Shown in pieces: positions 6,001-44,665 of a DNA stretch of 64,000 nt. Every line of letters begins with the position of its first letter. Position 1 is the first letter of the stretch. The translations under genes were made by a program, and so were the position numbers. The notes under the pieces were generated by a model. That model made no database searches. It saw nothing but the letters and a program-made list of their open reading frames with translations, and was not told the origin of the DNA. Source of the stretch: Scylla paramamosain (lineage: Eukaryota; Arthropoda; Malacostraca; Decapoda; Portunidae); contig NC_087197.1 in assembly GCF_035594125.1 (NCBI RefSeq), forward strand, positions 7,672,110 through 7,736,109. Reading direction: 5' to 3'.

Positions 6001-7366
6001 AGTTTCACAAGAACCACAAGGAAAAAACAAGCAAAAACTCGTGTATATGGAGATGTTTCTTAGATAACAAAACGCTGAAATTCATGAATAACACTCTTAA
6101 TTGAGAAACAGAACAACCTTACCAAATGCGTGTATTTTGAGTTTTTTTCATATTTTCTTAGTTACCAAAACCCGTTATTACATGCGAAACTAGCTTTATG
6201 TGGGAAATAAATGACATTACCAGAAAAAAAAAAGTGTTTTTTGACTGTTTTTGAGCGTGTTAGGCAATAAAGCAAAAAAAAGCAGGGCAATGACATTACA
6301 TGGGAATAAAACCAACATTTACCAAGAACTTGTCTTTAAGTGTTTTTCAGCTCCTTACATACCAAAACACTAAAATGCATGCAAAACACCCTTTATGGAG
6401 AAACAAAATAACATTACGAAAAACATTAATTTTCAGTGTTTTTGATCTGTTACGTATAAAAACGCTTAAATACATGCAAAAAAATCTATGTTTGGGAAAC
6501 GAAAGGACATTACGAGAAAAGTGTATTATGAGTGTTTTTAAGTTCCATAAGTACGAAAAGAGTTAAAACCCACAAATAATACTCTTCATATAGAAAATAA
6601 ATAAATAAATAAAAACTAGTATATTTGTTTTTGTTATTTATTTTCATAGGTACCGAGATGCCAAAATTCTGGCAAAATTCAGGGAAATTATTTGAAAAAA
6701 ATAATATTATGAAAAAAGTTAATTTTAGCTTCTTTTTTTTTTCGGACTGTTATGTACCAAACTCTAAAGTGTATGCAAAGCCACCTATATGAGGAAATTA
6801 AACGACTTTACCAGATACCTGTCTTTTCAGTGTTTTTCAGCAAGTTAGGCACCAAAACGATAAATAATATGGAAGTCACTCTATATGGGAATCCAAAACA
6901 AAATTACTGAAAACGTGTCTTTTTAGTGTTTTACTTAGAAAAACATTAAAACGGATGCAAACCAACCAATATGAAGAAATAGAATAATATTACTAAAAAG
7001 TTATATTTTGAGTGTTTTTGAGCTTGTTACCTACAGAAAACGCGAAAATAGTTGCAAAGCACTCTATATTGGGGAAAGAAAAGGACATTACGAGAAACGT
7101 GTAAAATGAGTGTTTTATAGTTTCACAAGAACCACAAGGCAAAACACGCAAAAACTCGTGTATATGGAGATGTTTCTTTTATGCCAAAATGCTGAAATTC
7201 ATGAATAACACTCAATTGAGAAACAGAACAACTTTACCAAATGGATGTATTTTGAATCTTTCTAACATTCTTACTTACCAAAACACCAAATTGCATGCGA
7301 AACTAGCTTTATGTGTGAAAAAAAAATATTACCAGAAAAGTGGTTCTCAGGTACCAAAACGCAAAA
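1..7366 (+). repeat. HOR satellite block 1
   Basis: Tandem satellite organised in units of about 1.1 kb. The unit landmark (GGTACC-GAGATGCC-like, just after a T-rich tract) is seen at 745, 1848, 2969, 4044, 5049, 5567 and 6649. The 5049-5567 unit is only 518 bp long: its D monomer runs directly into the I monomer near 5375-5400, so most of D plus E to H are missing. A short inverted segment lies at 4307-4446. An A-run of about 20 bp occurs at 2584-2603. All short open frames here are translations of satellite in arbitrary frames: they start and stop at random, recur with the repeat and show no protein family features. Confidence 0.93.
4279..4474. repeat. Snap-back inversion with 28-bp perfect arms
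   Basis: The arms at 4279-4306 and 4447-4474 are perfect reverse complements of 28 bp. They surround 140 bp of satellite (D/E monomers) in the opposite orientation to the rest of the block. The left arm is the start of a D monomer in direct orientation and the right arm is the same D start inverted. This is what a fold-back strand switch during replication would leave. Normal E-monomer sequence resumes after 4474. Confidence 0.85.
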
Positions 7367-8820
7367 ATGGAGAAAGAAAAAAAAACATTACCAAAATCGT
7401 GTAATTTGAATGTTTTTCACATTGTCAGGTAGCAAAACACCATAATGCTTAATCGCTATACGAGAAAATTAAACAACAATGTAAGAAATGTGTTTTTATG
7501 TGTTTTTCCGCGTGTTAGGCACGAAAACGCTAAATAGCATGGAAAGCACCTTATATAGAAATGCAAAATAATAAGCATGTCTTTTAAGTGTTTTAAACTT
7601 TTTACGTTCCAAAACGCTAAAACGCGTGCAACAAACACGAATAATCTTACCAAAGAAAAAAACCTTACCAAAAACGTGTATTTTGAGTCTTTTTGAGTCT
7701 GTTACGTACATCATCTTAAAAATGCATTTAAAGCACCCTGTATGAAGAAACGATAGGACATTACGAGAAACGTGTATTATCAGAGTTTTGAGTCTCTTAG
7801 GTACCAAACACTAAACCGCCTGAATGAAAATTAAATATATTATATATCTCTTAATAGAGAAACAGAACATCACCAAAAACGTGTTTTTGTGTTTTTTTTT
7901 TTCCTTTTTATGTATCAAAACGTCAAAATACATACAAAGCAATCTTTATGGGGAAATGGAAAGACGTTTGGAGAAACAAGTTTTATTTGTGTTTCTGAGC
8001 TTCCTAAGTAAGCTTCCTAAGTACCAAAACGCTAAAAAGGATGAATAGCACCCTATATAGAGAAAAAGAACAACATTACCTAAAATCTTTATTTTGAGCG
8101 TTTTTCACATTATGTAGCAAAACATCATAATGCATGCAGATCCCTATATGAAGAAGCAAAACTATATTACAGGAAACGTGTCTTTTGAGTGTTTACTTGA
8201 GTGTTAGGAATCAAAATGCTAAAAAGCATTGAAAGCACCCTATTTGGCAATATAAAATAACATTACCAAGAAAGTATCTTTAGAGTGTTTTTCACCTTCT
8301 TACATCCGAAATCGCAGAAAAGCATGCAAAATAACCTTTACGGAGAAACAAATTAGCATTATCAAAAACTTGTATTTTGATTGTTTTTGTGCTTGTTAAG
8401 TATAAAAGTGCCAAATTACACGCAAAGCATCCTTCATGGAGAAAAGAAAGGACATTACGAGAAAAGTGTATTATGAGAGATTTTGAGCTTTTTAGGTACC
8501 CAGACTCAAAAACACATGATTAGAACTTTATATGGAAAAATAACTCAACCGAAAACTTTTACTTAAACTTTTTTTTTCATATTGTTAAGTACCAAAAGAC
8601 AAAAAGCATTGGAAGCCCCCTTTATCGGGAAACGAAACGACATTTTCATCAACGTGTCTTTTGAGTGTTTTTCAACGTGTTAGACACCAAAACGCTGAAA
8701 AGCATGGAAAGCGCTCCATAAAGGAATACAAAATAACATTACTAAAAACGTGTTTTAAAGGTTCTTATGTACAGAAACGCTAAAACTCAAGCAAAACACC
8801 CTTTATAGAGAAGCGAAATA
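7367..8820 (+). repeat. Divergent satellite island, copy A
   Basis: Here the monomers still show the family signature (TGAGTGTTTTT-like first half, ACCAAAACGCTAAAA-like second half, spacing near 95 bp), but they do not follow the order of the HOR unit and lack the GGTACCGAGATG landmark. The stretch matches 49141-50550 almost base for base, with scattered substitutions and small indels, so it is one arm of a segmental duplication about 41.8 kb apart. It abuts HOR satellite at about 7366 and a LINE fragment at 8821. No gene is seen in it. Confidence 0.85.
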
Positions 8821-9587
8821 AATATTTCGTTGATAAATTACATTCAGGACAGTTAGGGAATATCCCTTACACAAGAATAAGATCGCAGAAAAATGATCAT
8901 AAATGGATGACAGAGGTTAAAACATTACATAGGGCGAAAGAGAAGTATATATGAGATTAAAGACAGGGGAAGTGGTTTTAAGGAATTTGAAATGAATTAA
9001 TGAATTAGAAAAGTCAGGAGTTTAACAAGGAAAGCTTAAAATAGTTATGAATTAAAGGTAGCCAGCCAAGCGAAGATGGACCCCAAGGGATTTTATCAGG
9101 CATATAAGACGAAGAATAGAGAAACAATAGTTCCTTAAAGACAGCAGAATGGGACCTGCTTAGTTGTTGGGAGGAGATTAGTAAAATTGTGAACGAGTAT
9201 TTTTTAACTGTCTTTGCCCAGGAAAACATGCAGGATTTGCCGAATAGTGACAAGATATTCAGAGTAGAAGAAAATGAGAAGCTGACAGATATTACCATAA
9301 CTAAAGAGATAGTGGAACAGGAGATAGATAAGCTGAAAAGTTCAAGTCACCAGGACCAGATGAAATATATTCCACAGTATTTAAGAATTGGAAAAAGGTT
9401 ATAAGTAATCTGGATAACGTCATGGCCAAGCGGCAGGCGACAGAGTGTTGTAATAAACGGCTCTAAATCCGAGTGGGGTCAAGTAATTAGTGGGGTGACA
9501 AAGGGATTATTAGTATTAGGGCCGATGTTGTTTGTAATATATGTCAATGACTTGGATAGTGGAATTAGTAGTGTTGTTAGTAAATTT
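8821..9587 (+). mobile_element. Decayed LINE fragment A
   Basis: Non-satellite sequence that translates piecewise, with frame changes and stops, into a LINE reverse transcriptase. Recognisable pieces are a DPKGFYQAYKTKNRETI-like linker, a NEYFLTVF segment near 9190, a SPGPDEI motif at 9347-9367, and then a VINGSKSEWGQVISGV...GPMLFVIYVNDLD stretch at about 9450-9560. In this family type the last piece is the region around the conserved '[19 protein letters not shown]' motif. Roughly two hundred residues of finger/palm sequence between SPGPDEI and VINGS are absent, as is the catalytic YADD. The fragment looks CR1/Jockey-like, but the clade is not certain. It cannot be active. Confidence 0.82.
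9183..9587 (+). pseudogene. LINE reverse transcriptase remnant
   Basis: Longest readable part of fragment A. One frame covers the segment from NEYFLTVF to about 9346 (KLKSS). The SPGPDEI motif follows in a shifted frame, so a small indel lies near 9345. After about 9405 the text jumps, through a large internal deletion, to the strand carrying IYVNDLD at about 9534-9557. The conserved aspartates of the RT active site are not present. The fragment then ends abruptly in satellite at 9588. Confidence 0.75.
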
Positions 9588-9629
9588 AGGGTGCATGCAA
9601 AGCACCCTAAATGAGGAAAAAAAGGGACA

Positions 9630-9725
9630 TTACGAGAAACGTGCATTATAAGTGTATTTGAGATTCTTAGATACCAAAACCCTGAAACTCATGAATAACA
9701 CTCTTAATTGAGAAACAGAACAACC
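9630..9725 (+). repeat. Simple 96-bp E monomer (lacks the extra half)
   Basis: In almost all HOR units the E monomer is about 149 bp because some 50 bp (from TAGTTTCACAAGAACC to TGTATATGGAGAA) is inserted between its halves. Here the first half runs directly into TTCTTAGATACC, giving a normal 96-bp monomer. The same state is seen only at 51277-51368, which also directly follows a LINE remnant. Confidence 0.75.
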
Positions 9726-11130
9726 TTACCAAATGCGTGTATTTTGAGTGTTTTCACATTCTTGGTTACAAAAACCCCAAATTGCATACGAAACTAGCTT
9801 TATGTGGAAAGAAAAAAAAAGACATTTCCAGAAAAATGTCTTTTGAGTGTTTTTGAGCGTGTTAGGCAATAAAGCACTAAAAAGCAAGGCAATCACATTA
9901 CATGGGAAGAAAACCAACTTTTACCAAGAACTTGCCTTTAAGTGTTTTTGAGCTCCTAACATACCAACACACTAAAACGCATGCAAAACACCCTTTATGA
10001 AGAAACGGAATAACATTACCAAAAACATGTATTTTGAGTGTTTTTGATTAAGTTACCTATAAAAACGCTTAAATACATGGAAAGAACCCTATGTTTGGGA
10101 AACGAAAGGACATTACGTGAAACGTGTATTATGAATATTATTAAATTCCTTAAGCACCAAAAAGCTAAAATCCACAAATAACACTCTTTATAGAGAAAAA
10201 AAAAAGAATTTTCCTTTTTTTTTGTTATTCTTCTTCATATGTACCGAGATGCCAAAATTCTGGTAAAATTCAGGGAAATTATATGGAAAAAAGAACATTA
10301 TCAAAAAAAGTTCATTTTAGCTTTTTTTTCGGACAGTTATGTACCAAAACCTAAATTGCATGCAAAGCCACCTCTATAGGAAATTAAACGACTTTACCAG
10401 AAACCTGTCTTTTGAGTGTTTTTCAGCATGTTAGGCACCAAAACAATAAATAATATGGAAGTCACTCTATATGGGAATCCAAAACAAAATCACTTAACAC
10501 TTGTCTTTTCAGTGTTTTACGTAGAAACACGCTAAAACGGATGCAAACAAACCAATATGAAGAAATAGAATAACATTGCCAAAAAGGTATATTTTGAGTG
10601 TTTTTGAGCCTGTTACCTACAAAAAACGCGAAAATGGATGCAAAGCACTCTATATTGGGAAACAAAAGGACATTACAAGAAACCTGTATAATGAGTGTTT
10701 TATAGTTTCACAACAACCACAAGGCAAAAGTTTCTTAGATACCAAAATGCTGAAACTCAAGAATAACACTCTTGATTGAGATACAGAACAATCTTACCAA
10801 ATGCGTGTATTTTGTGTGTTTTTCACATTCTTTGTCACCAAAACACGAAATTGCATGCGAAACTAGGTTTATGTGGGGAAAAAATTATATTGCCAGAAAA
10901 TTTTTTTTTCAGTGTTTATGAGCGTGTTAGGCAATAAAGTACTTAAAAGAAGGGCAATCACATTACATGTGAATAAAAAAACTTTTACCAAGAACTTGCC
11001 GTTAAATGTTTTTGAGCTCATTACATACCAAAACGCTAAAACGAATGCAAAAAATCCTTTATGGAGAAAAACAAAAACATTACAAAAAACATGTATCTTG
11101 AGTGTTTTTGATCATGTTACCTATAAAAAC

Positions 11131-11470
11131 GCTTAAATACAGGCAAAGAATCCTATGTTTGGGAAACGAAAGGACATTACGAGAAACATGTATTATAAGT
11201 GTTTTTAAGTTACTTAAATACCAAAAAGCTAAAGCCCACAAATAACACTCTTTATGAAGAAACAAACAAACAAAAAAAAAAACAATAAATAAAAATAAAC
11301 GCTTAAATACAGGCAAAGAATCCTATGTTTGGGAAACGAAAGGACATTACGAGAAACATGTATTATAAGTGTTTTTAAGTTACTTAAATACCAAAAAGCT
11401 AAAGCCCACAAATAACACTCTTTATGAAGAAATAAACAAAAAAAAAAAAAACAATAAATAAAAATAAATA
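11131..11470 (+). repeat. Recent 170-bp tandem duplication
   Basis: The I/J monomer segment beginning GCTTAAATACAGGC at 11131 is repeated at 11301. The two copies match apart from length and sequence differences in the A-rich tail. The duplication begins and ends in A-rich tracts (AATAAAAATAAAC preceding the second copy), suggesting slippage or unequal exchange at the A-tract. It accounts for the 1277-bp spacing of this HOR unit. Confidence 0.88.
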
Positions 11471-13435
11471 AATAAAATAAAAGAAAATAATTTTTTTTTT
11501 GTTATTTATCTTCAGAGGTACCAAGATGCCAAAATTCTGTTAAAATTCAGGGAAATTATGTGGATAAAAGAACATTATCGAAAAAGTTAATTTTAGCTTT
11601 TTTTTTCGGACTGTTATGTACCAAACCCTAAAGTGCATGCAAAGCCATCTATATGGGGAAATTAAACGACTTTACAAACTGTCTTTTGAGTGTTTTTCAG
11701 CATATTAGGCACCAAAACGATAAATAATATGGCAGTCACTCTATATGGGAATCCAAAACAAAATTACTGAAAACGTGTCTTTTCAGTGTTTTACGTAAAA
11801 AAAACGCTAAAACGGATGCAAACAGACCAATATGAAGAAATAGAATAACATTACCAAAAAGGTATATTTTAAGTATTTTTGAGCTTGTGACCCAAAAAAA
11901 AAAAAAACGTGAAAATGGATGCAAAGCACTCTATATTGGGAAATAAAAAGACATTACGAGAAACGTGTATAATGAGTATTTTATAGTTTCACAAGAACCA
12001 CGAAGCAAAAAACGCAAAAACTAGTGTATATGGAGAAGTTTCTTAGATACCAAAATGCTGAAACTCCTGAATAACACTTCATTAAGAAACAGAATAACAT
12101 TACTAAATGCGTGTATTTTGAGTGTTTTTCACATTCTTAGTTATTAGAACCCCAAATTGCATGCGAAACTAGCTTTATGTGGGAAAAAAAATGACATTAC
12201 CAGAAAAGTATCTTTTGAGGGTTTTTGAGAGAGTTAGGCAATAAAGCACTAAAAAGGAGGGTAATCACATTACATGGGAATAAAACCAACTTTTAAGTGT
12301 TTTTTAACTCCTTATATACCAAAACGCTAAAACACATGCAAAACACCCTTTACGGAGAAACAGATTAACATTACCAAAAACATTTATTTTGAGTGTTTTT
12401 GATCATGTTATTTCTAAAAACGCTTAAATACATGCAAAGAACCCTATGTCTGGGAAACGAAAGGACATTATGAGAAACGTGTATTATGTGTTTTTAAGTT
12501 CCATAAGTACCAAAAAGCTAAAACCTCTTTATAGAGAAAAAATAAAGAAATAATTAAAAAATAGGATTCTTTTTTTTTTTTGTTCTTCCTCTTCATAGGT
12601 ACTGAGATGCCAAAATTCTGGCAAAATTCAGGGAAATTATGTGCAAAAAGAACATTATCGAAAAAGTTAATTTTAGCTTTTTTTTCGGACTGTTATGTAC
12701 CAAACCATGAAGTACATGCAAAGCCAACTATATGGGGAAATTAAACGACTTTACGAGAAACCTGTCTTTTGTGGTTTTTTCTCTTTCTCTATTGGTTAAC
12801 AAAAGGACATTACGAGAAACGTGTATAATGAGTGTTTTATAGATTCTCAAGAATCACAAGGCAAAAAACGCAAAAACTCATATATATGGAGAAGTTTCTT
12901 AGATACCAAAATGCTGAAACTCCTGAATAACACTCTAAATTGAGAAACAGAACAACCTTACTAAATGCGTGTATTTTGAGTGTTTTTCACATTCTTAGTT
13001 ACCAAAACCCCAAATTTTATGTGAAAGTAGCTATATATGGGAAAAAAAATGACTACCAGAAAAGTGTCTTTTAAATTTTTTTTTTTTTTTAGCATGATAG
13101 GCAATAAAGCACTAAAAAGCAGGGCAATCACATTACATGGGAATAAAGCTAACTTTTACTAACAACTTGCTTTTAAGTGTTTTTGAGCTCCCTATATTCC
13201 AAAACGCTAAAACGAATGCAAAACACCCTTTATGGAGAAAGAGAATAACATTACCAAAAACACGTATTTTGATTGTTTTTGATCATGTTACCTGTAAAAA
13301 CTCTTAAATACATGCAAAGAACCTTATGTTTGGGAAATTAAAGGGCATTTCGAGAAACATGTATTACCAGTATTTTTAAGTTCTTTAAGTACCATTTAGC
13401 TATAACCCATAAATAACACTGTTTATAGAAAAAAA

Positions 13436-13557
13436 AATAAATAAATGAATAAAAAGATAGGAATTTATTATTATTTTTTTTTTTGTTATTCATCTTCATA
13501 GGTACCAAGATGCAAAAATTCTGGCAAAATTCAGGAAAATTATGTAAAAAAAGAACA
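13436..13557 (+). repeat. HOR monomer K (A-tract/T-tract hinge)
   Basis: The most degenerate monomer. Its first half has become a T-tract followed by TTATTCATCTTCATAG, and its second half is GGTACCGAGATGCCAAAATTCTGG-like. Together with the A-rich end of J it makes an abrupt A-then-T transition in every unit. The (AT)n tract at 38833 lies exactly at this point in its unit. Confidence 0.75.
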
Positions 13558-13654
13558 TTATGAAAAATAGTTAATTTCAGCTTTTTTTTCGGACTGTTAT
13601 GTACCAAACCCTAAAGTGCATGCAAAGCCACCTATATGAGGAAATTAAACGACT
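13558..13654 (+). repeat. HOR monomer L (97 bp)
   Basis: Starts TTATGAAAAATAG in this copy (TTATCAAAAAAG in most). It carries the diagnostic TTTTTTCGGACTGTTATG in place of the usual TGAGTGTTTTTGAGC, then CAAACCCTAAAGTGCATGC. It ends in GAAATTAAACGAC. Confidence 0.8.
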
Positions 13655-13750
13655 TTACGAGAAACCTGTCTTTTGAGTGTTTTTCAGCATGTTAGGCACC
13701 AAAACGATATATAATATGGAAGTCACTCAATATGGGAATCCATCACAAAA
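13655..13750 (+). repeat. HOR monomer B (96 bp)
   Basis: Starts TTACGAGAAACCTGTC (TTACCAGAAACC elsewhere). It is diagnosed by CAGCATGTTAGGCACC and ACGATAAATAATATGGAAG, and ends in GGGAATCCAAAACAAAA-like sequence. Confidence 0.8.
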
Positions 13751-13836
13751 TTACTGAAAAAGTGTCTTTTCAGTGTTTTACGTAGAAAAACGCTAAAACG
13801 GATGCAAACCAACGAATATGAAGAAACAGAATAACA
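13751..13836 (+). repeat. HOR monomer C (86 bp)
   Basis: The shortest full monomer. It starts TTACTGAAAA and is diagnosed by TCAGTGTTTTACGTAG, AAACGGATGCAAACC and ATGAAGAAATAGAATAACA-like sequence. Confidence 0.8.
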
Positions 13837-13935
13837 TTACCAAAAAAAGGTATATTTTCAGTGTTTTTGAGTTTCTTATCTACAAAAAACGCGAAAATGG
13901 ATAGAAAGCACTCTATATTGAGATACAAAAGGACA
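13837..13935 (+). repeat. HOR monomer D (99 bp)
   Basis: Starts TTACCAAAAA, with GTATATTTTGAGTG, then CTACAAAAAACGCGAAAATGG and CTCTATATTGGGA-like sequence, ending in AAAAGGACA. The CG-containing AACGCG is typical of D. Confidence 0.8.
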
Positions 13936-14019
13936 TTCCGAGAAACTTGCATTATGAGTGTTTTATAGTTTCACAAGAACCACAAGGCAAAAAACGAAAA
14001 AACTCGTGTATATGGATAA
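13936..14019 (+). repeat. HOR monomer E, first part
   Basis: Starts TTCCGAGAAAC here (TTACGAGAAACG in most units), with TATAATGAGTGTTTTATAG, then CACAAGAACCACAAGGC and ACTCGTGTATATGGA. The CACAAGG segment and what follows appear to be an extra half-monomer inserted into an originally 96-bp monomer (compare 9630-9725). Confidence 0.75.
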
Positions 14020-14084
14020 GTTTCTTAGATACCAAAATGCTGAAACTGAGGAATAACACTCTTAATTGAGAATACAGAACAACC
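14020..14084 (+). repeat. HOR half-monomer after E (65 bp)
   Basis: Starts GTTTCTTAGATACC and includes ATGCTGAAACTCATGAATAA-like and ACTCTTAATTGAG sequence. It lacks the T-rich first half of a monomer. It is present in the canonical HOR units, so the whole 11.5-mer, not the single monomer, is the unit being homogenised. Confidence 0.8.
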
Positions 14085-14182
14085 TTACGATATGCGTGTA
14101 TTTTGACTGTTTTTCACATTCTTAGTTACCAAAACCTCAAATTGCATGCAAAACTAGCTTTATGTGGTAAAAAAAAATGACA
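14085..14182 (+). repeat. HOR monomer F (98 bp)
   Basis: Starts TTACGATATGCGTG here (TTACCAAATGCGTG or TTACTAAATGCG elsewhere). It is diagnosed by TTCACATTCTTAGTTACC, ACCCCAAATTGCATGCGAAA and CTAGCTTTATGTGG-like sequence. The inverted segments of the window break inside the start of this monomer. Confidence 0.8.
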
Positions 14183-14278
14183 TTACCAGAAAAGTGTCTT
14201 TTGAGTGTTTTTGAGCGTGTTAGGCAATAAAGCACTAAAAAGGAGGGCAATCACATTACATGGGAATAAAACCATCTT
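14183..14278 (+). repeat. HOR monomer G (96 bp)
   Basis: Starts TTACCAGAAAAGTGTC, with GAGCGTGTTAGGCAATAAAG, CACTAAAAAGCAGGGCAATC-like sequence, and ACATTACATGGGAATAAAAC at its end. Confidence 0.8.
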
Positions 14279-14373
14279 TTACCAAGAACTTGAATTTAAG
14301 TGTTTTTGAGCTCCTTATATACCAAAACGCTAAAACGCATGCAAAACACCCTTTATGGAGAAACAGATTAACA
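14279..14373 (+). repeat. HOR monomer H (95 bp)
   Basis: Starts TTACCAAGAACTTG, with GAGCTCCTTATATACC, then the best-preserved second half of the family (AAAACGCTAAAACGCATGC, CACCCTTTATGGAGAAACAG). Confidence 0.8.
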
Positions 14374-14470
14374 TTACCAAAAACATGTATTTTGAGAGTT
14401 TTTGATCATGTTACATCTAATAACGCTTTAGTAAATGCAAAAAACCCTATGTCTGGGAAACGAAAGGACA
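14374..14470 (+). repeat. HOR monomer I (97 bp)
   Basis: Starts TTACCAAAAACATG, with TTTTGATCATGTTACC, AAACGCTTAAATACATGC-like sequence, CCCTATGT(T/C)TGGGAAACG and AAAGGACA. Confidence 0.8.
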
Positions 14471-14560
14471 TTAGGAGAAACGTGTATTATGAGTCTTTTT
14501 AAGTTCCATAAGTACCAAAAAGCTAAAACCTATTTATAGAGAAGAAAAAAGTAAATAAAT
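14471..14560 (+). repeat. HOR monomer J (A-rich end)
   Basis: Starts TTAGGAGAAACGTG (usually TTACGAGAAACG), with TTAAGTTCC(A/T)TAAGTACC, AAAAAGCTAAAACC and, in most copies, CACAAATAACACTC. It ends in a variable A-rich run (GAGAAAAAAATAAATAAATA-like) that changes length between copies and leads into the T-tract of K. Confidence 0.8.
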
Positions 14561-17230
14561 AAATAGGATTTTTTTTTTGTTATTCTTCTTCATAGGTACC
14601 GAGATCACAAAATTCTGGCAAAATTCAGGGAAATTATATGAAAAAAGAACATTATCAAAAAAGTTCATTTTAGCTTTTTTTCGGACTGTTATGCACAAAA
14701 CCCTAAATTGCATGCAAAGCCAACTATATGGGGAAATTAAACGACTTTACGAGAAACCTGTGTTTCTAGTGTTTTTCAGCTTGTTAGTCACCAAAACAAT
14801 TAACAATATGGAATTCATTCTATTTGGGAATCCAAAACAAATTACTGAAAACGTGTCTTTTCCGTGTTTTAAGTAGAAAAATGCTAAAACGGATGCAAAC
14901 CAGCCAACATGAAAAAATAGAATAAGTTTGCCAAAAAGGTATATTTTGAGTATTTTTGAGCTTTTTACAAAAAAAAAAAAAAAAAAAAAACGCGAAAATG
15001 GATGGAAAGCTCTCTATATTGGTTAACAAAAGGACATTACGAGAAACGTGTATAATGAATGTTTTATAGATTTTCAAGAAGCACAAGGCAAAAAACGCAA
15101 AAACTCGTATATATGGAGAAGTTTCTTAGATACCAAAATGGTGAAACTCCTGAATAACACTATTAATTGAGAAACAGAACAACCTTACCAAATGCGTGTA
15201 TTTTGAGTGTTTTTTACATTCTTAGTTACCAAAACCCCAAATTTTATGTGAAAGTAGCTTTATGTGGGAAAAAAAAATGACATTACCAGAAAAGTGTCTT
15301 TTAAGTGTGATTGCATGATAGGCGATAAAGCACTAAAAATCAGGGCAATCACATTACATGGGAATAAAATCAACTTTTACCAAGTGTTTTTTCTAAGTGT
15401 TTTTGAGCTCCTTATATACCAAAACGCTAAAACGCATGCAAAACACCCTTTATTTAGAAACAGAATAACATTACCAAAAACATGTATTTTGAGTGTTTTT
15501 GATCATGTTACCTATAAAAACGCTTAAATACATGCAAAGAATCTTATGTTTGGGAAACGAAAGGACATTTCGAGAAACGTGTATTATGAGTGTTTTTAAG
15601 TTCTTTAAGTACCAAAAAGCTAAAACCCACAAATAACACTATTTATAGAGAAAAAAATAAAAAAATAAAAAAATAAAAAAATAGGATTTTTTTTTATTCA
15701 TCTTCATAGGTACCGAGATGCTAAAATTCTGCCAAAATTCAGGGAAATTATGTGAAAAAAGAACATTATGAAAAAGAGTTAATTTTAGCTTTTTTTTTTC
15801 GGACTGTTATTTACCAAACCCTAAAGTGCATGCAAAGCCACCTATATGGGGAAATTAAACGACCTTACCAGAAACCTGTCTTTTGTGTTTTTTTTTTTTT
15901 CAGCATGTTAGGCACCAAAACGATAAGTAATATGGAAGTCACTAAATGTGGGAATCCATCACAAAATTACTGAAAAGTGTCATTTCAGTGTTTTACGTAG
16001 AAAAACGCTAAATCGGATGCAAACCAACGAATATGGAGAATAACATTACCAAAAAGGTATATTTTGAGTGTTTTTGAGCTTCTTACCTTCAAAAAACGCG
16101 AAAATGGATGGAAAGCCCTCTATATTGGGATACAAAAGGACATTACGAGAAACGTGTATAATGAGTGTTTTATAGTTTCACAACAGCCACAAGGCAAAAA
16201 TCGCAAAACTCGGTGTATATGGAGAAGTTTCTTATATACCAAAATGGTGAAACTCAGAAATAACACTCTTAATTAAGAATACAGAAAAACCTTACGAAAT
16301 GCATGTATTTTGAGTCTTAGTTACCAAAACCAAAAATTCCATGCGAAACTAGCTTTATGTGGGAAAAAAATGACATTACCTAAAAAAGTGTCTTTTGAGT
16401 GTTTTTGAGCGTGATAGGCACTAAAGCACTAAAAAGGAGGGCAATCACATTATATGGGAATAAAACCAACTTTTACCAAGAACCTGCCTTTACGTATTTT
16501 TGAGCTTCTTACATACCAAAACGCTAAAACGCTTGCAAAACACCCATTATGGAGAAACATAATAACATTACCAGAAACATGTATTTTGAGTGTTTTTGAT
16601 CATGTTACCTATAAAAATGCCTAAATACATGCAAAGAACCCTATGTTTGGAAAATGAAAGGACATTACGAAAATCGTGTATTATGAGTGTTTTTAAGTTC
16701 CTTAAGTACCAAAAAGCTAAAACCTACAAATAACTTTATAGAGAGAAAAAAAATTTGTTATTCATCTTCATAGGTACCGAGATGCCAAAATTCTGGCAAA
16801 ATTCATGGAAATTTTGTAAAAAATAATCATTATAAAAAAAATAATTTTAGCTTTTTTGCCGAGTTATGTACAAACTCTGAAGTGCATGCAAATCCACCTA
16901 TATGGGGAAATTTCACGACTTTACCAGAAACCTGTCTTTTGAGTGTTTTTCAGCAATCTGAACAATATTACTTAAAACGTGTCTTTTCAGTGATTTACGT
17001 AAAAAAACGCTAAAACGGATGCAAACCAACCAATATGAAGAAATAGAATAACATTACAAAAAAGATATATTTTGATGTGTTTTTGAGCTTGTTACCTACA
17101 AAAAATGCAAAAATGGATGGAAAGCACTCTATATTGGCAAAGAAGAGGACATTACGAGAAACGTGTATGAGTGTTTTATAGTTTGAGAAGAACCACAAGG
17201 TAAAAAGCTCAAAAACTCGTGTACATAAAG

Positions 17231-17392
17231 AAGTTCTTACATACCAAAAAGCTGAAACTCATCAATAACACTTTTAATTTTCAAACAGAAATACCTTACC
17301 AAATGTGTGTATTAGAAAAGTTTCTTACATACCAAAATGCTGAAACTCATGAATAACACTTTTAATTAAGAAATAGAACAACCTTACTAAAC
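17231..17392 (+). repeat. 88-bp half-E/F-start duplication, copy 1
   Basis: The half-monomer (TTCTTACATACC) plus the first 18 bp of F is repeated after 88 bp (17234 and 17322). The same duplication occurs in three other HOR units (33817, 40531, 58665), always together with a GGATGGAAAGCACT D monomer and CGTGTATGAGTG E start. It marks one HOR lineage. Confidence 0.8.
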
Positions 17393-20300
17393 CCTGTGTT
17401 TTGAGTTTTTTTTTCACATTCTTAGTTAGCAAAACCCCAAATTCCATGCAAAACTATCTTTATGTGGGAATAAAATGATATTACCAGAAAAGTGTCTTTT
17501 GAATGTTTTTGAGCGTGTTAGGCAATAAAGCACTAAAAAGCAAGGGAATCACATGACATGGGAATAATAACAACTTTTACCAAGAACTTGCCTTTAAGTG
17601 TTTTTGAGCTCATTACATACGAAAACGCTAAAACGCATGCAAAACACCTTTTATGGAGAAAGAGAATAAAATTACCAAAAACATATATTTTGAGTGTTTT
17701 TGATCATGTTATCTATAAAAACGCTTAAATACATGCAAAAAACCTTATGTAAACATAAGAAACATAAGAAACGAAAGGCCATTTTGAGAAATGTGTATTA
17801 TAAGTGTCTTTAAGTTCCTTAAGTACAAAAAAGCTAAAACCCACAAATAACTCTCTTTTTTTAGAAAAAAAAGAAAGAAAATAAAAAAATAGGATTTTTT
17901 TTTTTGTTATTCATCTTCATAGGTACCGAGATGCCAAAATTTCTGGGAAAATTCAGGACTATTATATGTAAAAAAAAAAAAATTATCAAAAAAGTAAATT
18001 TTAGCTTTTTTTTCGGACTGTTATGTACCAAACCCTAAAGTGCATCCAAAGACTCCTATATGAGGAAATTAAACGATCTTACCAGAAATCTGTTTTTTGA
18101 GTGTTTTTCAGCATGTTAGGCACTAAAACGATAAATAATAAGGAACTCATTCTATATGAGAATCCAAAACAAAATTACTGAAAACGTGTTTTTTCTTTCT
18201 TTTACGTAGAAAAACGCTAAAACGGATGCAAACCTACCAATATCAAGAAATAGAAAAACATTACCAGAAAGGTATATTTTTTCTGTTTTTGAGCTTGTTA
18301 CCTACAAAAAACGCGAAAATTGATGCAAAGCACTCTATATTAAAAAACAAAAGGACTTTCCAAGAAATGTGTATAATGAGTTTTTATAGTTCAAAAGAAC
18401 CAAAAGGCTAAAAACACAAAAACTCCTGTATATGGAGAAGGTTCCTAGATACCAAAATGCTGAAACTCATGAATAACACTCTTAATTGAGAAACAGAACA
18501 ACCTTACTAAATGCGTGTATTTTGAGTGCTTTTCACATTCTTAGTTACCAAAACCCCAAATTGCATGCAAAACCACCTTTATGTGAGAAAAAAATGACAT
18601 TAACAGAAAAGTGTCTTTTAAGTGTTTTTGAGCATGATAGGCAATAAAGCACTAAAAAGCAGGGCAATCATATTACATTGGAATAACACCAATGCCTTTA
18701 AGTGTTTTTGAGGTCCTTATATACCAAACCGCTAAAACGCATACAAAAACAAACGTTTTGGAGAAACAGAACAACATTACCAAAAACATGTATTTTTAGT
18801 GTTTTTGATATTGTTATCTATAAAAACGCTTAAATACATGCAAAGAACATTATGTTTGGGAAACAAAAGGATATGACAAGAAACGTGTATTATGAGTGTT
18901 TTTTTAAGTTCCTTAAGTACCAAAAAGCTAGAACCCACCAATAACACTCTATATTTAGAAAATAAAGAAAATAAAAATATAAAAAAATAGGATTTTTTTT
19001 TTTTATTCATATTCATAGGTACCGAGATGCCAAAAGTCTGGGAAAATTCAGGGCAATCATAAGATAAAAGAGTATTATCAAAAAAGTTAATTTCCGTTTT
19101 TTTTTTATCGGACTGTTATGTACCAAACCTTAAAGTGCATGCAAAGACTCCTATATGAGGAAATTAAACGACCTTACAAGAAATATGTGTTTTGAGTGTT
19201 TTTTAGCATGTTAGGCACCAAAACCAAAACTCACCCTATATGGGAATTCATAAAAAAAGCTACTGAAAACGTGTCTTCTCAGTGTTTTACGTAGAAAAAC
19301 TCTAAAAGGGATGCAAAGCAACCAATATCAAGAAATAGAAAAACGTTACTAAAAAGGTATATTTTGAGTGTTTTTGAGCATGTTACCTACAAAAAACGCG
19401 AAAATTGATGCAAAGCACTCTATATTGGGAAAGAAAAGGACATTGCAAGAAAAGTGTATAATGACTGTTTTATAGTTCAAAAGAACCGCAAGGCAAAAAA
19501 CGCAAAATCTCGTGTATATGGAGAGGTTTCCTAGATACAAAAATGGTAAAACTCATGAATAACATTCCTAATTGAGAAACAGAACAGCCTTAATAAATGC
19601 ATGTATTTTGATTGCTTTTCACATTCTTATCAAAACCCAAAATTGCATGCGAAAATAGATTTGTGGGAAAAAAAAAACACTTTACCAGAAAAGTGTCTTT
19701 TGAGTGTTTTTGAGCGTGATAGAAAAAAAAAGCACTAAAAAGGAGGGCAATCACATTACATTGGAGGAAAACGAATTTTTACCAAGAACTTGCATTTATG
19801 TGTTTTTGAGCTCCTTATATACCAAAACACTAAAACGCATGCAAAACACTCTTTATGGTGAAACAGAATAACATTACCAAAAACATGTATTTTGAGTGTT
19901 TTTGATCATGTTACCAATAAAAACGCTTAAATAAATGCAAAGAACATTATTTTTGGGAAATGAAAGGAGATTACGAGAAACGAGTATTATAAGTGTTTTT
20001 AAGTTCATTAATTACCAAAAAGCTAAAAGCCACAAATAACACTCTTTATTGAGAAACAATAAATAAATGAAAAAAAAATACAATATTTTTTTCTTATTCA
20101 TCTTCACAGGTACCGAAATGCCAAAATTCGGGCAAATTTCAGAAAATTATGTGAAATAAAAACATTATCAAAAAAGTTAAATTTAGCTTTTTTTTTCGAA
20201 CTGTTATGTACCAAACCCCTAAATTGCATGCAAAGCCACCTATATGGGGAAATTAAACGTGTTTGCCAGAAAACTGTCTTATGAGTGTTTTTCAGCATGT

Positions 20301-20540
20301 TAGGAACCAACATCATAAAACCCAAGGAAGTCAATCTATATGGGAATCCAAAACAAAATTACTGAAAACGTGTCTTTTCGGTGTTTTACGTACAAAACGC
20401 TAAAACGGATGCAAACTAATCAAAATGAAGAAATAGAATAACATTAACAAAAAGGTATATTTTGAGTGTTTTTGAAATTGTTACCCACAAAAAACGCGAA
20501 AATGGATAGAAAGCACTCTATATTGGGAAGCAAAACGCAC

Positions 20541-21166
20541 CAAAAAGCATGTTAGGCACCAAAACGATAAAAAATATGAAACTCACTCTATATGGAAATC
20601 CAAAACAAAATTACTGGAAACGTGTCTTTTAAAAGATTTACGTAGAAAAACGCTAAAACGGAGGCAAACCAACCAATATGAAGGAATAGAATAACATTAC
20701 CAAAAAAGTATATTTTGTGTGTTTTTGAGCTTGTTACATAAAAAGAAACTCGAAAATGGATGCAAAGCACTCTATATAAGGAAAAAAAAAGGACATAATG
20801 AGAAACGTGTATAATGAGTGTTTTATAGTTCACCAGAATCACAAGGCAAAAAATGCAAAAATTCGACTGTATGGAGAAGTTTCTTAGATACCAAAATACT
20901 GAAACTCATGAATAACACTCTTAATCAAGAAACAGAACAACCTTACTAAATGCGTGTATTTTGAGTGCTTTTTTTACATTCTTAGTTACCAAAATCCCAA
21001 ATTCCATGCAAAACTAGCTTTATGTGGGAAAAAAATGACATTACCAGAAAAGTGTCTTTGAGTGTTTTTGAGTGTGTTAGGCAATAAAGCACTAAAAAGC
21101 ACGGCAATCACATTACATGGGAAGAAAAACAACTTTTACGAAGAAAATGCCTTTTAGTGTTTTTGA
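20541..21166 (+). repeat. HOR variant with repeated B-C-D and altered C
   Basis: After a normal B-C-D run, monomer D is cut short and the sequence returns to B (AGCATGTTAGGCACC at about 20545). The second C carries TCTTTTAAAAGATTTACG instead of TCTTTTCAGTGTTTTACG. D, E, F, G and the start of H follow, up to the inversion joint. The same joint and the same C change recur at about 63085-63230, and the C change recurs at about 28240. All three lie just upstream of an inverted segment. Confidence 0.8.
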
Positions 21167-21474
21167 CACGCATTTAGTAAGGTTGCTCTGTTTCTCAATT
21201 AAGAGTGTTATTCATGAGTTTCAGCATTTACAGGAGTTTTTGAGTTTTTTGCCTTGTGGATTTTTTTAATTATAAAACATTCATTTTACATTTTTCCCGC
21301 AATGTTTTCTACGTAAAACACTGAGAAGACACGTTTTCAGTCATTTTCTTTTGGATTCCCACATAGAGTGAGTTCCTTATTATTTATCGTTTTGGTGCCT
21401 AACATGCTGAAAAACACTCAAAAGACAGATTTCTGGTAACGTCTTTAATTTCCTCATATGGGAGGCTTTGCATG
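21167..21474 (-). repeat. Inverted satellite segment 1
   Basis: Satellite in reverse orientation: reverse complements of F start, half-E, E, C, B and L end follow each other, while the flanks run forward (H before, G after). The left joint (TTTTTGACACGCATTTAG) and the right joint (TTTGCATGTCTTTT) match those of segment 2. About 190 bp (most of D with parts of E and C) is missing inside, compared with segment 2. Confidence 0.88.
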
Positions 21475-24400
21475 TCTTTTCAGTGTTTTTGAGCGTGTTA
21501 CGCAATAAAGCACTAAAAGCCAGGGCAATTACATTACATGGGAATAAAACCAAATTTTACCAAGAACTGGCCTTTAAATGTTTTTGAGCTCCTTACATAC
21601 CAAAACGCTAAAACGCATGCAAAATACATTTTATGGAGAAACAGAATAACATTACCAAATACATGTATTTTGAGTGTTTTTGATCATGTTATCTAAAAAC
21701 GCTTAAATATATGCAAAGAACCTTATGTTTGGGAAACGAAAGAACATTACGAGAAACGTGTATTATGAGTGATTTTTAAGTTCCTTCAGTACCAAAAAAG
21801 CTAAAACCCACAAATAACACTCTTTAGAAAAAAATAAATAAATAAATAAAAAAAAAAAAAAAAATGGAAATTTTGTTTTTTGTTTTTCATCTTCATAGGT
21901 ACCGAATTGCCAAAATTCTGCCCAAATTCAGGGAATTTATGTGAAAAAAAGAACATTATCATGAAAGTTAATTATAGCTTTTTTTTTCTGATTGTTATGT
22001 ACCAAAACCTAAAGTGCATGCAAAGCCACCTATATAGGGAAGTTAAACGACTTTACCAGAAACCTGTCTTTTTAATGTTTTTCAGCATGTTAGGCACCAA
22101 TACGATAAATAATATGAAAATCAGTCAATATGTGAATCCAAAACAAAATTACTAAAACGTGTCTTTTCAGTGTTTTACGTAGAAAAGCGCTAAAGCGGAT
22201 ACAAACCATCCTATATGAAGAAATAGAATAACATTACCAAAAAAATATTTTTTGAGTGTTTTTGAACTTGTTACCTACAAAAAATGCAAAAATGGATGGA
22301 AAGCACTCTATATTAGGAAACAAAAGGACATTACGAGAAACGTGTATAATGAGTGTTTTATAGTTTTAAAAGAACCACAAGGCAATAAACGTAAAAACTC
22401 GTGCATATAGAGAAATTTTTACTTACCAAAATGATGAAATGCATGAATAACACTTTTAAACAGAACAGAACTACCTTAGTACCTTAAACAGTACTACCTT
22501 ACCAAATTGTGTATTTTAAGTGTTTTTCACATTCTTAGTTACAAAAATGCCAAATTACATGCGAAACTAGCTTCATTTGGGAAAAAAAATGACATTACAA
22601 GAAAAGTATCTTTTGAGTGTTTTTGAGCGTGATATGCAACAAAGCACTAAAAAGCAGAACGATCACATTACATGAGAATAAAACCAATTTGTACGAAGAA
22701 TTTGCCTTTAAGTGTTTTTTAACCCCTTATATACCAAACCGCTAAAACGCATGAAAAACAAACTTTATGGAGAAACAGAATAACATTACGAAAAACATGT
22801 ATTTTGAGTGTTTTTGATCATGTTATCTATAAAAACGCTTAAGTACATGCAAAGAACATTATGTTTGGGAAACAAAAGGACATTACGAGAAACGTGTATT
22901 ATGAATGTTTTTTATAAGTTCCATAAGTACCAAGAAGCTAAAACTCACAAATAACACTCTTTATTTAGAAAATAAAAAATAAAAAAATAAAATAAATAGG
23001 ATTTTTTTTTTTGTTATTCATCTTCATAGGTACCGAGATGCCAAAATTCTGGAAAAATTCAGGGCAATTATGTGATAAAAGAATATTATCAAAAAAGTTA
23101 ATTTCAGCTTTTTTTTTCGGACTGTTATGTACCAAACCCTAAAGTGCATGTAAAGCCTCCAATATGAGGAAATTAAACGACCTTACCAGAAAGTTACTAA
23201 AAACGTTTCTTCTCAGTGTTTTACGTAGAAAAACGTTAAAACGGATGCAAACTAACCAATATCAAGAAATAGAAAAACGTTACCAAAAATGTATATTTTG
23301 AGTGTTTTTGAGCTTTTTACCTAGAAAAACGCGAAAATTGATGCAAAGTACTCTATATTGGGAAACAAAAGGACATTGCAGGAAAAGTGTATAATGAGAG
23401 TTTTATACTTCAAAAGAACCACAAAGCAAACAACGCAAAAACTCGTGTATATGGAGAGATTTCTTAGATACCAAAATGCTGAAACTCATGAATAACACTC
23501 TTAATTGAGAAACAGAACAACCTTACTAAATGCGTGTATTTTGAGTGCTTTTCACACTCTTAGTTACCAAAAACCCCAAATTACATGCGAAAATAATTTT
23601 GTGGGGAAAAAAATGACTTTACCAGAAAAGTATCTTTTGAATGTTTTTCAACGTGATAGGTAATAAAGTACTCAAAAGCAGGACAATCATATTATATTGG
23701 AATAAAACCATTTTTTACCAAGCACTTGCCTTTAAGTGTTTTTGAGCTCCTTTTATACAAAACTGCAAAACGCTTGCAAAACACACTTTATGGAGAAACA
23801 GAATAACATTACCAAAACCTTGTATTTTGAGTGTTTTTGATCACGTTATCTATAAAAACGCCTAAATACATGCAAAGAACCTTATGTTTGGGAAACGAAA
23901 GAACATTACGAGAAACGTGTATTATGAGTGTTTTTAATAACCTTAAGTACCAAAAGGTAAATCCCACAAATAACACTCTTTATTGAGAAAAAAAATAAAA
24001 TAAATAAATAATAAAAAAAATAGGATTTTTTAAATTTTTTTATTTATCTTCATAGGTTCCAAAATGCCAAAATTCTGGGAAAATTCAGGGCAATTATATG
24101 ATAAAGGAATATTACCAAAAAAGTTAATTTTAGCTTTTTTATATACCAAATCCTAAAGTGCATGGAAAGCCTCCTATATAAGGAAATTAAACCACCTTAT
24201 CAGAAATCTCTCTTTTGAATGTTGTTCAGCATGTTAGGCACCAAAACAATAAATAATAAGGATCTAACTCTATATGGGAATTCAAAACAAAATTACTGGA
24301 AACGTGTCTTCTCAGTGTTTTACGTAGAAAAACGCTAACACGGATGCAAACAAACCAATATAAAGAAATAGAAAAACATTACCAAAAAGGTATATTTTGA

Positions 24401-27400: not shown

Positions 27401-28389
27401 CTTAGATACCAAAATGCTGAAACTCATGAATAACAATCTTAATTGGGAAACAGGACAACATTACCAAATGCGTGTATTTTGAGTGTTTTTTCTTAGTTAG
27501 CAAAACCCCAAACAGCATGCAAAAAGTAACTTTATGTGGGAAAAAAATGACATTACCAGAAGTGTCTTTTGAGTGTTTTTTGAGCGTGTTAGGCAATAAA
27601 GCAATAAAAAGCTAGGCAATCATATTACATTGGAATAAAACCAACTTTTACCAAGAACTTGCCTTGAAGTGTTTTTCAGCTCCTTACATACCAAATCGCT
27701 AAAACGCATGCAAAACACTTCTTTATGCAGAAGCAGAATAACATTACCAAAAACAAGTGTTTTTGAGTGTTTTTTATCCTATTACCTATAAAAACGCTTA
27801 AATACATGCAAAGATCCCTATATTTGGGAAAGGAAAGGACATTACGAGAAATGTGTATTATGAATGTTTTGAAGTTCTTTAAGTACCAAAACGTTAAAAC
27901 CTACAAATAACACTCTTTATAGAGAAAAAAAATAAATAAAATAATAGCATTTTTATTTTTTTGTTATTGATGTTCATAGGTACCAAGACGACAAAATTCT
28001 GCCAAAATTCAGGGAAATTATGTGGAAAAATTATGTGGAAAAAGTTACTTTTACCTTTTTTTCGGAGTTATGTACCAAACCATAAAGTGTATCCAAAGTC
28101 ACCTATTTGGGGAAATTTAACGACTTTACAACAAAAGAAACCTATCTTTTTAGAGTGTTTTTTCGCATGTTAGGCACCAAAACGATAGATAATATGAAAG
28201 TCACTCTATATGGAAATCCAAAACAAAATTACTGAAAACGTGTCTTTTAAAAGATTTACGTACAAAAATGCTAAAACGGATGCAAACCAACCAATATGAA
28301 AAAATAGAATAACATTACCAGAAAAGTATATTTTGTGTGTTTTTGAGCTTGTTACATAAAAAAAAGAACTTGCCTTTTAGTGTTTTTGA
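21475..28389 (+). repeat. HOR satellite block 2b
   Basis: Forward HOR units resume with monomer G. Landmarks are at 21898, 23029, 24055, 25147, 26003, 27056 and 27979. Short spacings reflect internal deletions: D joined to F near 25500-25515, and K joined to the end of B near 27075-27090. At about 28355 the altered D is fused directly to H, losing E to G, just before the second inversion joint. No gene is seen. Confidence 0.92.
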
Positions 28390-31504: not shown

Positions 31505-31609
31505 CCACTGCTTTGACCCTTTTATGGGACTGGCATTTCAGTGGGCATTTTTTTTTATTAGATTTTTGTTGCCCTTGGCCAGTATCCTTCCTACATAAAA
31601 AAAAAAAAA
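31505..31609 (+). other. LINE 3' untranslated region and poly-A tail
   Basis: Short stretch after the TGA stop: CCACTGCTTTGACCC-like sequence, a T-run, TTGCCCTTGGCCAGTATCC and then a 13-A tail at 31597-31609. The tail is followed immediately by CACTCAAAATATAC of the inverted satellite. A poly-A end fits target-primed reverse transcription. Confidence 0.75.

Positions 31610-38829: not shown

Positions 38830-39017
<188 letters not shown>

Positions 39018-44205: not shown

Positions 44206-44665
<460 letters not shown>

Follow-up and report, generated by a model that had tools for sequence, protein, structure and literature searches.

A higher-order repeat of a probable centromere-region satellite in a crustacean, apparently renewed as long blocks

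A stretch of 64,000 nucleotides (the window), in which an earlier note had described a higher-order repeat (HOR) of 11.5 monomers, raises two questions: whether this satellite belongs to a centromere region, and by what process its copies are renewed. The reading favored here, at roughly three chances in four, is a centromere-region satellite that grew in nested rounds and is now renewed by long tracts.

The HOR unit itself is much as described. Its consensus is 1,101 bp long and contains 11 monomers (∼96 bp, one of 86 bp) and a 52-bp half monomer; the stretch 13436–14594, where it had been noticed, spans one unit, placed at 13501–14591 in the new register. In unit order, the slots M1–M5, the half monomer H, and M6–M11 (M11 counted across the chosen unit start) measure 96, 96, 86, 97, 96, 52, 96, 96, 95, 96, 96, and 99 bp, in agreement with the monomers of 95–99 bp and one of 86 bp reported before. 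As also claimed, the slots recur in fixed order together with the half monomer, which was aligned in 43 rows. H is a monomer without its central part and, in the representative unit, lies in the gap between the monomer matches 13887–13972 and 14035–14124.

13501–14591, + strand: representative HOR unit, 0.945 identity to the 1,101-bp consensus
13980–14034, + strand: half monomer, slot H (52 bp), approximate position in the representative unit (slot alignment)
16773–17918, + strand: 12.5-mer HOR variant with an extra M6 (HOR positions 1–598, then 512–1101)

The 12.5-mer variant is also found at 33356, 40068, and 58219, with a similar variant at 54107, and the first parts of the four 12.5-mer variants form one clade in a tree (support 100/99). 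Self-alignment of the consensus was best at a lag of 523 (70.4% over 1,630 columns, 726 bits; runner-up 216 bits), which indicates that the HOR arose by duplication of a half unit. Related monomer types are repeated inside one unit (M4/M9, M5/M10, and M2/M7).

Slot membership was tested by a clustering blind to the HOR, on 467 monomers cut by a monomer-only HMM. Outside two diverged blocks lay 407 of these, and 405 of the 407 could be assigned to a slot. In all 405 the nearest relative came from the same slot (expected by chance, 0.112 or ∼11%), a result that covers 9 of the 12 slots because the divergent M1, M11, and H were absent among the tested monomers; the nearest relative lay within 600 bp in only two. 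Grouping by neighborhood, named beforehand as the outcome that would speak against the HOR, was thus not seen. As in other HOR satellites, de novo monomer clusters corresponded to slots that recur in fixed order, and same-slot monomers of different units (identity 0.83–0.88) were far closer than monomers within one unit (mean 0.683 between slot consensuses, range 0.568–0.865, nine regular monomers).

Satellite makes up 58,589 of the 64,000 bases of the window (91.5%; >90% had been estimated), and the 51,050 HOR columns amount to 46.4 unit equivalents, near the ∼45 units reported before, with 29 rows filling at least 90% of columns. The description of the HOR as clean did not hold: mean unit-unit identity is 0.861 (54 rows), and the window contains inversions, indels, LINE sequence, 12.5-mers, and ∼7.4 kb of diverged satellite that lacks the HOR period. 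Its features are as follows.

1–7344, + strand: HOR array segment; short inverted piece, 4306–4468 (profile matches, 0.84–0.95 to consensus)
7342–8821, + strand: diverged satellite block, no HOR period (0.736–0.738 to HOR consensus)
8822–9591, + strand: decayed CR1-like LINE remnant, uncovered by satellite
9592–28365, + strand: HOR array segment; short inverted pieces, 21166–21508 (HOR profile matches)
28389–28634, − strand: inverted satellite piece, left of the LINE that splits it (HOR profile matches)
28635–31590, + strand: LINE insertion with endonuclease and reverse transcriptase frames (PF00078 RVT_1, 4.2e-35)
31591–31873, − strand: inverted satellite piece, right part (HOR profile matches)
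31850–44204, + strand: HOR array segment (self-BLAST, unit tree)
44210–44661, + strand: perfect (AT)226 between HOR and diverged block (TRF, sequence)
44662–50552, + strand: second block of diverged satellite, lacking a HOR period, inverted at ∼47174–47731 (monomer clustering)
51179–63727, + strand: HOR array segment (HOR profile matches)
63727–63999, − strand: inverted piece, left breakpoint shared with 21166 (alignment across junction)

In the two diverged blocks together, 53 of 60 monomers belong to no HOR class. A five-monomer ancestral HOR kept in these blocks was not upheld: no lag is prominent in the block of 49 monomers, and the top value in the block of 11, 0.406 at lag 6, comes from a handful of pairs. 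A second LINE remnant copy (50554–51178) aligns with the first in two pieces, 89.4 and 95.0% identical, and together with the end of the second diverged block it copies 7367–9012 (90.1% over 1,656 columns); the label CR1-like is a by-eye reading of the sequence letters, with no family search behind it. The statement that the window has no genes stands insofar as the LINE reverse transcriptase frame (29176–31185) is not a host gene, but the frame had been overlooked. The endonuclease domain of this LINE (PF03372, 1.1e-4) falls under its curated cut-off, its relatives are crustacean, and it points to a malacostracan. Rfam and tRNA scans of the window gave no match, nor did the monomer 25-mer in viral contigs.

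Near-identical neighboring units, the mark of a homogeneous (active-type) HOR array, were not found, adjacent units being 0.869 identical within the window (45 pairs) and 0.861 over 84 pairs from 14 loci. Longer pieces of the window also resemble one another. The units from 39045, 57189, and 15709 are similar to a block of six units that begins at 32277 (unit tree, self-BLAST); self-BLAST aligned 32044–38193 with 56983–63095 at 89.2% and 15295–20535 with 31850–37092 at 88.0%. Across inversion junctions, 20100–21303 matches 62659–63865 at 92.2% and 31682–32279 matches 21305–21900 at 91.9%. Units with a similarity of at least 0.91 were placed collinearly in 12 of 31 pairs, which none of 5,000 shuffles reached (null mean 0.81, maximum 5).

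Much closer copies lie elsewhere in the genome. Among 40 candidates scored, the representative unit had near-full-length matches (94%–100%) at 39 other places. On C47, the contig of the window, one unit recurs in full length six more times, in both orientations, and the first five copies on the + strand are spaced irregularly, by 83.9, 91.8, 222, and 19.6 kb. Fully collinear 10-kb stretches at 98.2%–98.8% were observed at three places on C47 and also on C132, and pieces of 7.4–8.0 kb at 98.3%–98.4% on C52 and C18. At points sampled at intervals, copy A (C47, ∼23 kb) matches the window from 1999 to 25488 and copy B (∼38 kb) from 10195 to 48254, with 98.5%–99.9% identity, the diverged block included. 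Blocks around one unit are 97%–99% alike at distances of ∼92 kb to 1.2 Mb on C47 and also between contigs. The irregular spacing on C47 rules out a fixed giant repeat period and, since copies A, B, and D also differ in collinear extent, indicates a mosaic with no tandem super-HOR.

As neighbors differ by ∼14% while ∼23- and ∼38-kb blocks recur at 98.5%–99.9%, the HOR is an old layer; it seems that recent renewal copies long blocks and that the 1.1-kb HOR is not the unit now homogenized. Ordinary homogenization as in alpha satellite, by local unequal crossover between adjacent 1.1-kb units, would suit the regularity of the HOR, a 170-bp segment recently duplicated in place at 11127–11468 (98%, TRF), and the slight excess of adjacent-unit identity in the window over the overall mean (0.869 versus 0.861). 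Its prediction, however, is the reverse of the observation, with neighbors younger than distant copies, whereas neighbors are 86%–87% alike and blocks tens of kilobases and more apart 97%–99.9%; such crossover is therefore disfavored and quite unlikely to be the explanation. Neighbors older than distant copies separate two models of satellite renewal that are seldom easily distinguished. The near-identical blocks might also be assembly artifacts or uncollapsed haplotypes, as satellite is hard to assemble and, at 0.42 Mb, the small C132 may be a haplotig. Two haplotypes cannot account for seven copies, which weakens the haplotype reading, and the copies on C47, in both orientations, irregularly spaced, and of unequal collinear extent, make an artifact very unlikely.

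The distribution of the HOR was followed in the window's own assembly (1.21 Gb), from the 40 scored candidates and from the k-mer matches listed (the first 100 of 1,511 and the first 100 of 219); contigs beyond C30 are consequently represented by the scored candidates alone. Of the 30 contigs with two or more listed places, several of which have just two, 28 show a single HOR cluster; a reversed-pattern control search gave no match. On the three largest contigs checked, the clusters lie near mid-contig: C1, 18.2–20.9 of 42.2 Mb; C2, 22.3–23.2 of 41.7 Mb; and C3, 19.3–21.8 of 41.1 Mb. The earlier expectation of no dispersed arm sites is borne out by the 28 contigs but not by C20 and C22, each with a second site >5 Mb off among the listed places. 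As C9 and C23 have no place among the listed matches (64-mer list, in contig order to C30) or the scored candidates, occurrence on every chromosome stays unsupported. These four contigs would suit a noncentromeric heterochromatic satellite that by chance forms one interstitial band on most chromosomes; set against the single clusters and their mid-contig position on C1, C2, and C3, that reading is unlikely.

Layering was assessed on C2 with 20 sparse probes, 19 of them readable. HOR-grade sequence (0.901–0.934) was present in four, all at 22.35–23.10 Mb, and diverged satellite (0.668–0.755) in another four, none inside that interval; 11 were satellite free. On C3, diverged satellite flanks the cluster on its right side, and three readable probes to the left of the cluster contained no satellite. 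Layering is imperfect, as the C1 cluster contains one diverged probe and the window itself contains diverged blocks. The C2 pattern and the single-cluster distribution appear to match what would be expected of a centromere region. The window thus probably lies within a centromeric or pericentromeric satellite domain, in the genome of a malacostracan crustacean that is likely a decapod; the role proposed earlier is still read from sequence, more firmly now in view of the slot clustering and the single-cluster pattern.

The hallmarks of alpha satellite are a 171-bp monomer and the CENP-B box core TTCGNNNNANNCGGG, although the box is absent from many centromeres. Here the monomer is 96 bp (slots of 86–99 bp plus the 52-bp half), and the core had no match at 0 or 1 mismatch on either strand of the 64-kb window; at 2 mismatches there were 7 and 25 matches in the window and none, at up to 2, in the consensus.

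The chief alternative to a functional core, itself within the wide explanation favored here, is that the window belongs to a pericentromeric relic layer with interchromosomal segmental duplications, the active core being another, more homogeneous array or sequence nearby. In human centromeres, according to PMC9549924, divergence within an array is taken to reflect age, and diverged HOR or monomeric arrays are regarded as relic layers; the 14% difference between neighbors fits that reading. In addition, only 1 of 93 intervals between M9 32-mers on C1–C3 is shorter than 1.3 kb, so that no homogeneous 1.1-kb core with this 32-mer is assembled there. In contrast, distant blocks on C47 and between contigs are 97%–99% alike, and hence the sequence is not simply dead. 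A relic layer is accordingly given a chance approaching even, and CENP-A nucleosomes on the window stretch itself are somewhat doubtful.

In the proposed nested growth of a centromere-region satellite, a 96-bp monomer would have given rise to a half unit of five to six monomers (∼523 or 578 bp), whose duplication yielded the 1,101-bp 11.5-mer; blocks of about six HOR units would have followed, and the latest round would be the copying of blocks some tens of kilobases long within and between chromosomes. We infer the order of these rounds from identity levels; the sequence relations themselves are observed. Renewal may proceed by long-tract recombination, for example break-induced replication or an exchange of long blocks out of register, in place of unequal crossover one unit at a time. 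The domain would act as constitutive heterochromatin in and around the centromere; HORs would occupy its middle and older monomeric satellite its outer parts, a layout seen with the sparse probes on C2 and on one side of C3. More tentatively, the HOR may be a fossil tier and the tens-of-kilobase block the living unit of turnover, carrying HORs along with LINEs and dead monomeric satellite as it spreads within and between chromosomes; the renewal step would be ∼20 to 35 times the HOR length, and a primate-like layered, expanding centromere region would have evolved independently.

Crustacean centromeres are scarcely known at the sequence level in the literature searched. If correct, a satellite that occupies a single site on most contigs of chromosome size, with an 11.5-mer HOR and monomeric flanks, would allow the primate model to be tested independently, and the HOR supplies ready targets for FISH and CUT&RUN. 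Human alpha satellite, with its layered expanding centromere (PMC9549924), likewise has divergent monomers in fixed order in a kilobase-scale HOR, HOR-grade sequence inside and diverged or monomeric satellite outside, as seen here on C2, and its model includes interchromosomal transfer; here, however, adjacent HOR units are ∼86% alike, and near-identity appears only at the level of long blocks. Cascading alpha-satellite HORs with tertiary repeats (PMC11157248) also have levels above the HOR and monomer types repeated within a unit, but the upper levels here reach tens of kilobases and are the most alike of all. Among arthropods, TmSat1 and TmSat2 of Tribolium madens (PMC13081366) are similar (peri)centromeric satellites, with HOR growth from a ∼110-bp unit and inverted subarrays, whereas the present HOR is an 11.5-mer and switches orientation in places. 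The complex satellite HORs of Meloidogyne chitwoodi and M. fallax (PMC3694981), also invertebrates, are similar in their highly dissimilar monomers (32%–86% alike), HOR units (84%–99%), and long and short variants, but combine several satellite families where a single monomer family is seen here; shuffling between simple and HOR arrays is reported there, whereas the diverged-block monomers here mostly fall outside the HOR classes. Crayfish PlSAT3-411 (PMC7859515; PMC13130569) is likewise an AT-rich decapod satellite, of probable (peri)centromeric heterochromatin on all crayfish chromosomes, and the related PlSAT75-664, a HOR-like composite of longer unit, recalls the HOR described here. Compared by description only, the 411-bp unit contains four ∼70-bp repeats and is not an 11.5-mer.

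AA/TT/TA steps show a 9.5-bp periodicity (about ten per 96-bp monomer); HOR and diverged blocks both show it strongly, the LINE weakly. Across 35 diverged monomers it is retained above a like-base redistribution of substitutions (z 4.8 at 9.5 bp against 0.5 at 11 bp), which at first resembled constraint, and all 3,001 HOR substitutions show an excess (z 6.0 at 9.5 bp, also 3.2–4.0 at 11–11.5 bp); recent private HOR substitutions show no retention (z 0.1; 1,012 substitutions). Selection on the periodicity is not claimed, because shared ancestry and a mistaken ancestor can give such an excess. CpG decay, a possible sign of methylation, is only slightly in excess: C>T 0.088 at CpG versus 0.070, and G>A 0.100 versus 0.075.

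The window is AT-rich (satellite GC ∼0.30). A single-monomer profile gave 568 matches in it and a profile of one 1.1-kb unit gave 94, together covering 58,589 of the 64,000 bases. Five stretches of ≥150 bp were without satellite (a LINE, two old LINE remnants and two AT tracts), and two satellite blocks showed 0.68–0.81 identity, as a range for both, to the higher-order repeat (HOR) consensus.

7342–8821: diverged satellite block
8822–9591: old LINE remnant, CR1-like by eye, without satellite coverage
28635–31590: LINE, endonuclease and reverse transcriptase in separate frames, without satellite coverage
38833–39014: perfect (AT)91 tract
44210–44661: perfect (AT)226 tract, at the border of HOR array and diverged block
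44662–50552: diverged satellite block
50554–51178: old LINE remnant, CR1-like by eye, without satellite coverage

The HOR is nested. Its consensus of 1,101 bp comprises monomers M1–M5, a half monomer H (52 bp) that aligns as a monomer without its central part, and M6–M11. Monomers were cut without knowledge of the HOR and then clustered; seven large clusters were obtained (M4 with M9, M5 with M10, and M2, M3, M6, M7 and M8 singly), with 3 of the 407 HOR-region monomers outside them. The fixed monomer order described in the earlier note was borne out: the nearest relative lay in the same slot for all 405 assignable monomers, and within 600 bp for only two, while M1, M11 and H were assessed from the HOR alignment alone. 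Consensus identity between the nine regular slots averaged 0.683. Because the best match of the HOR consensus to itself is at lag 523 (70.4%, 726 bits versus 216 bits for the next offset), the HOR is a duplicated half unit; the paired slots M2/M7, M4/M9 and M5/M10 share 0.80, 0.86 and 0.84 consensus identity. Among the 60 monomers of the two diverged blocks, 53 belonged to no HOR class and seven to the M4/M9 class, and no clear repeat period stood out; from their sequence, both blocks look like older, non-HOR satellite.

Repetition extends above the unit. Unit-to-unit identity in the window averaged 0.861 (54 rows) and 0.869 for adjacent pairs (n = 45). Blocks of about six units are repeated (56983–63095 versus 32044–38193, 89.2%), and 49140–50744 is a second copy of 7367–9012 (90.1%), including part of an old LINE remnant. 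In the unit tree (50 rows; 15 of 47 inner branches weak), the clades 16773+33356+40068+58219 (100/99) and 36661+61561 (100/100) unite members far apart in the window. Collinearity with another such pair was observed for 12 of 31 pairs at ≥0.91, reached by none of 5,000 shuffles (47 rows, split units counted once), and for 4 of 16 at 0.93, reached by one of 5,000 (47 rows). The loci at 21.2 and 63.7 kb carry a common inversion, with 92.2% identity through its junction; at 31.6 kb, the right part of this inversion recurs (91.9%).

Long recent block copies were found beyond the window. Fourteen ten-kb stretches were compared, two flanking the window and twelve placed on near-identical units elsewhere in the assembly (contigs C1, C2 and so on; the window lies at C47:7672110–7736109). 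The flanks reached at best 89.8%–91.7%, and four of the twelve aligned over their full length.

Matches of ten-kb stretches to the window
C47 7.505 Mb: full length, 98.8%
C47 8.897 Mb: full length, 98.6%
C47 8.257 Mb: full length, opposite strand, 98.3%
C132 83 kb: full length, 98.2%
C47 7.589 Mb: 8.5 kb, 98.8%
C47 7.903 Mb: 7.3 kb, 97.9%
C18: 8.0 kb, 98.4%
C52: 7.5 kb, 98.3%
C132 252 kb: 4.9 kb, 97.1%
C13: 6.0 kb, 96.5%
C19: 3.7 kb, 96.2%
C2: 6.2 kb, 93.3%

Sampled points of two block copies on C47, A and B, match window positions 1999 to 25488 and 10195 to 48254, respectively, at 98.5%–99.9% (∼13 kb sampled for each), and the sampled diverged-block piece is 99.9% identical. Copy B probably carries the LINE too, because offsets are nearly unchanged on either side of it. 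At other sampled points collinearity of A and B is lost, and a further copy, D, is rearranged. Partners of ≥96.5% over ≥85% of length were found for 13 of 17 C47 probes, a rate biased by placement from known copies; best partners of HOR-grade probes on C1–C3 reached 85%–93% against a comparison set mostly from C47. Adjacent units in the 14 stretches average 0.861 (84 pairs) versus up to 99.9% for distant block copies; neighbors are thus the older pairs and distant copies the more recent, at least for C47 and its near relatives.

Across the assembly (1.21 Gb, 234 contigs), the HOR places listed fall mostly at a single site per contig. The unit at 13501–14591 has at least 40 near-full-length places, itself included, at 94%–100% on 21 contigs (40 of 14,188 candidates scored). 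An exact M9 32-mer occurs 1,511 times (802 plus, 709 minus); its reversed-pattern control gave no match genome-wide. Among the first 100 of these matches listed, 28 fall in one interval on C1 (18.19–20.88 Mb), 20 in one on C2 (22.26–23.21 Mb), 48 in one on C3 (19.28–21.82 Mb) and at least four on C4. For an exact 64-mer there were 219 matches, of which the first 100 listed extend to C30. These matches were pooled with 37 of the 40 unit places (three on the 0.42-Mb C132 left out; for C1–C4 only the ends of 32-mer ranges entered), giving places on at least 35 contigs; of the 30 contigs with two or more, 28 had all the places listed in one cluster (largest gap <3 Mb; spans 0.02–2.7 Mb). Two sites each were listed on C20 (0.01–0.58 and 6.2–6.3 Mb) and C22 (11.45 and 22.3–22.7 Mb). 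Their second sites, >5 Mb from the main cluster, are possible fusions, misjoins or relics. On C1–C3, both orientations of the 32-mer are present within the clusters, with frequent changes of strand along each.

The flanks of the clusters are partly layered, as judged from 29 readable probes of 32 (C2 19/20, C3 7/9, C1 3/3). On C2, HOR-grade sequence (0.901–0.934) was found at 22.35, 22.50, 22.65 and 23.10 Mb and diverged satellite (0.668–0.755) at 22.00, 23.28, 23.50 and 24.00 Mb; the other 11 readable probes had no satellite, and one of them, at 22.85 Mb inside the cluster, was LINE. C3 had HOR at 21.90 Mb (0.908), diverged satellite at 22.05 and 22.35 Mb, no satellite at three left-side probes and only 3% satellite at 20.40 Mb inside the cluster. 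C1 had HOR at 18.90 Mb, none of the satellite at 19.80 Mb and diverged satellite at 20.60 Mb. The gradient is therefore seen on both sides on C2, on one side on C3 and with a break on C1, and satellite does not fill the clusters completely.

Judged from sequence, the window probably belongs to a centromere-region satellite domain renewed by long-block copying, with odds of about three in four (0.76 rather than 0.78, because C9 and C23 had no HOR place among the matches listed for C1–C30). Two of the competing explanations, a non-centromeric satellite and an assembly artefact, each gained about one part in a hundred on checking. Under the centromere-region reading, renewal would proceed via long-tract recombination, and we infer the order of events in repeat growth. 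Human centromere work, in the part cited here, takes such divergence between units as age (PMC9549924), so a pericentromeric position is given no lower odds than a functional core. Among the top 10 to 20 titles of each open-literature search, none concerned a comparable decapod HOR. The nearest published counterpart there is the crayfish PlSAT75-664 composite (PMC7859515); the accessible text of a decapod repeat survey (PMC10454600) does not use "higher-order" or "HOR".

The LINE at 28635–31590 interrupted an inverted satellite piece. Named relatives of its reverse transcriptase, among 120 matches listed of 4,307, most without organism name, are from Petrolisthes cinctipes, Armadillidium vulgare, Eriocheir sinensis and Scylla paramamosain, all malacostracan crustaceans. 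Pieces of this LINE, 88%–98% alike, were present in 6 of the 29 readable probes, in or near the C1–C3 clusters; perhaps the element has an insertion preference. Sequence resembling the (AT)226 tract matches probes at 21.50 and 24.00 Mb of C2. In all window satellite, AA/TT/TA steps recur every 9.5 bp, so that a 96-bp monomer holds about ten; the periodicity is strong in both HOR and diverged blocks. Positions 12–19 of the monomer consensus form a perfect palindrome, TGCATGCA, and at 11127–11468 a 170-bp segment has recently been duplicated locally in tandem (98% identity).
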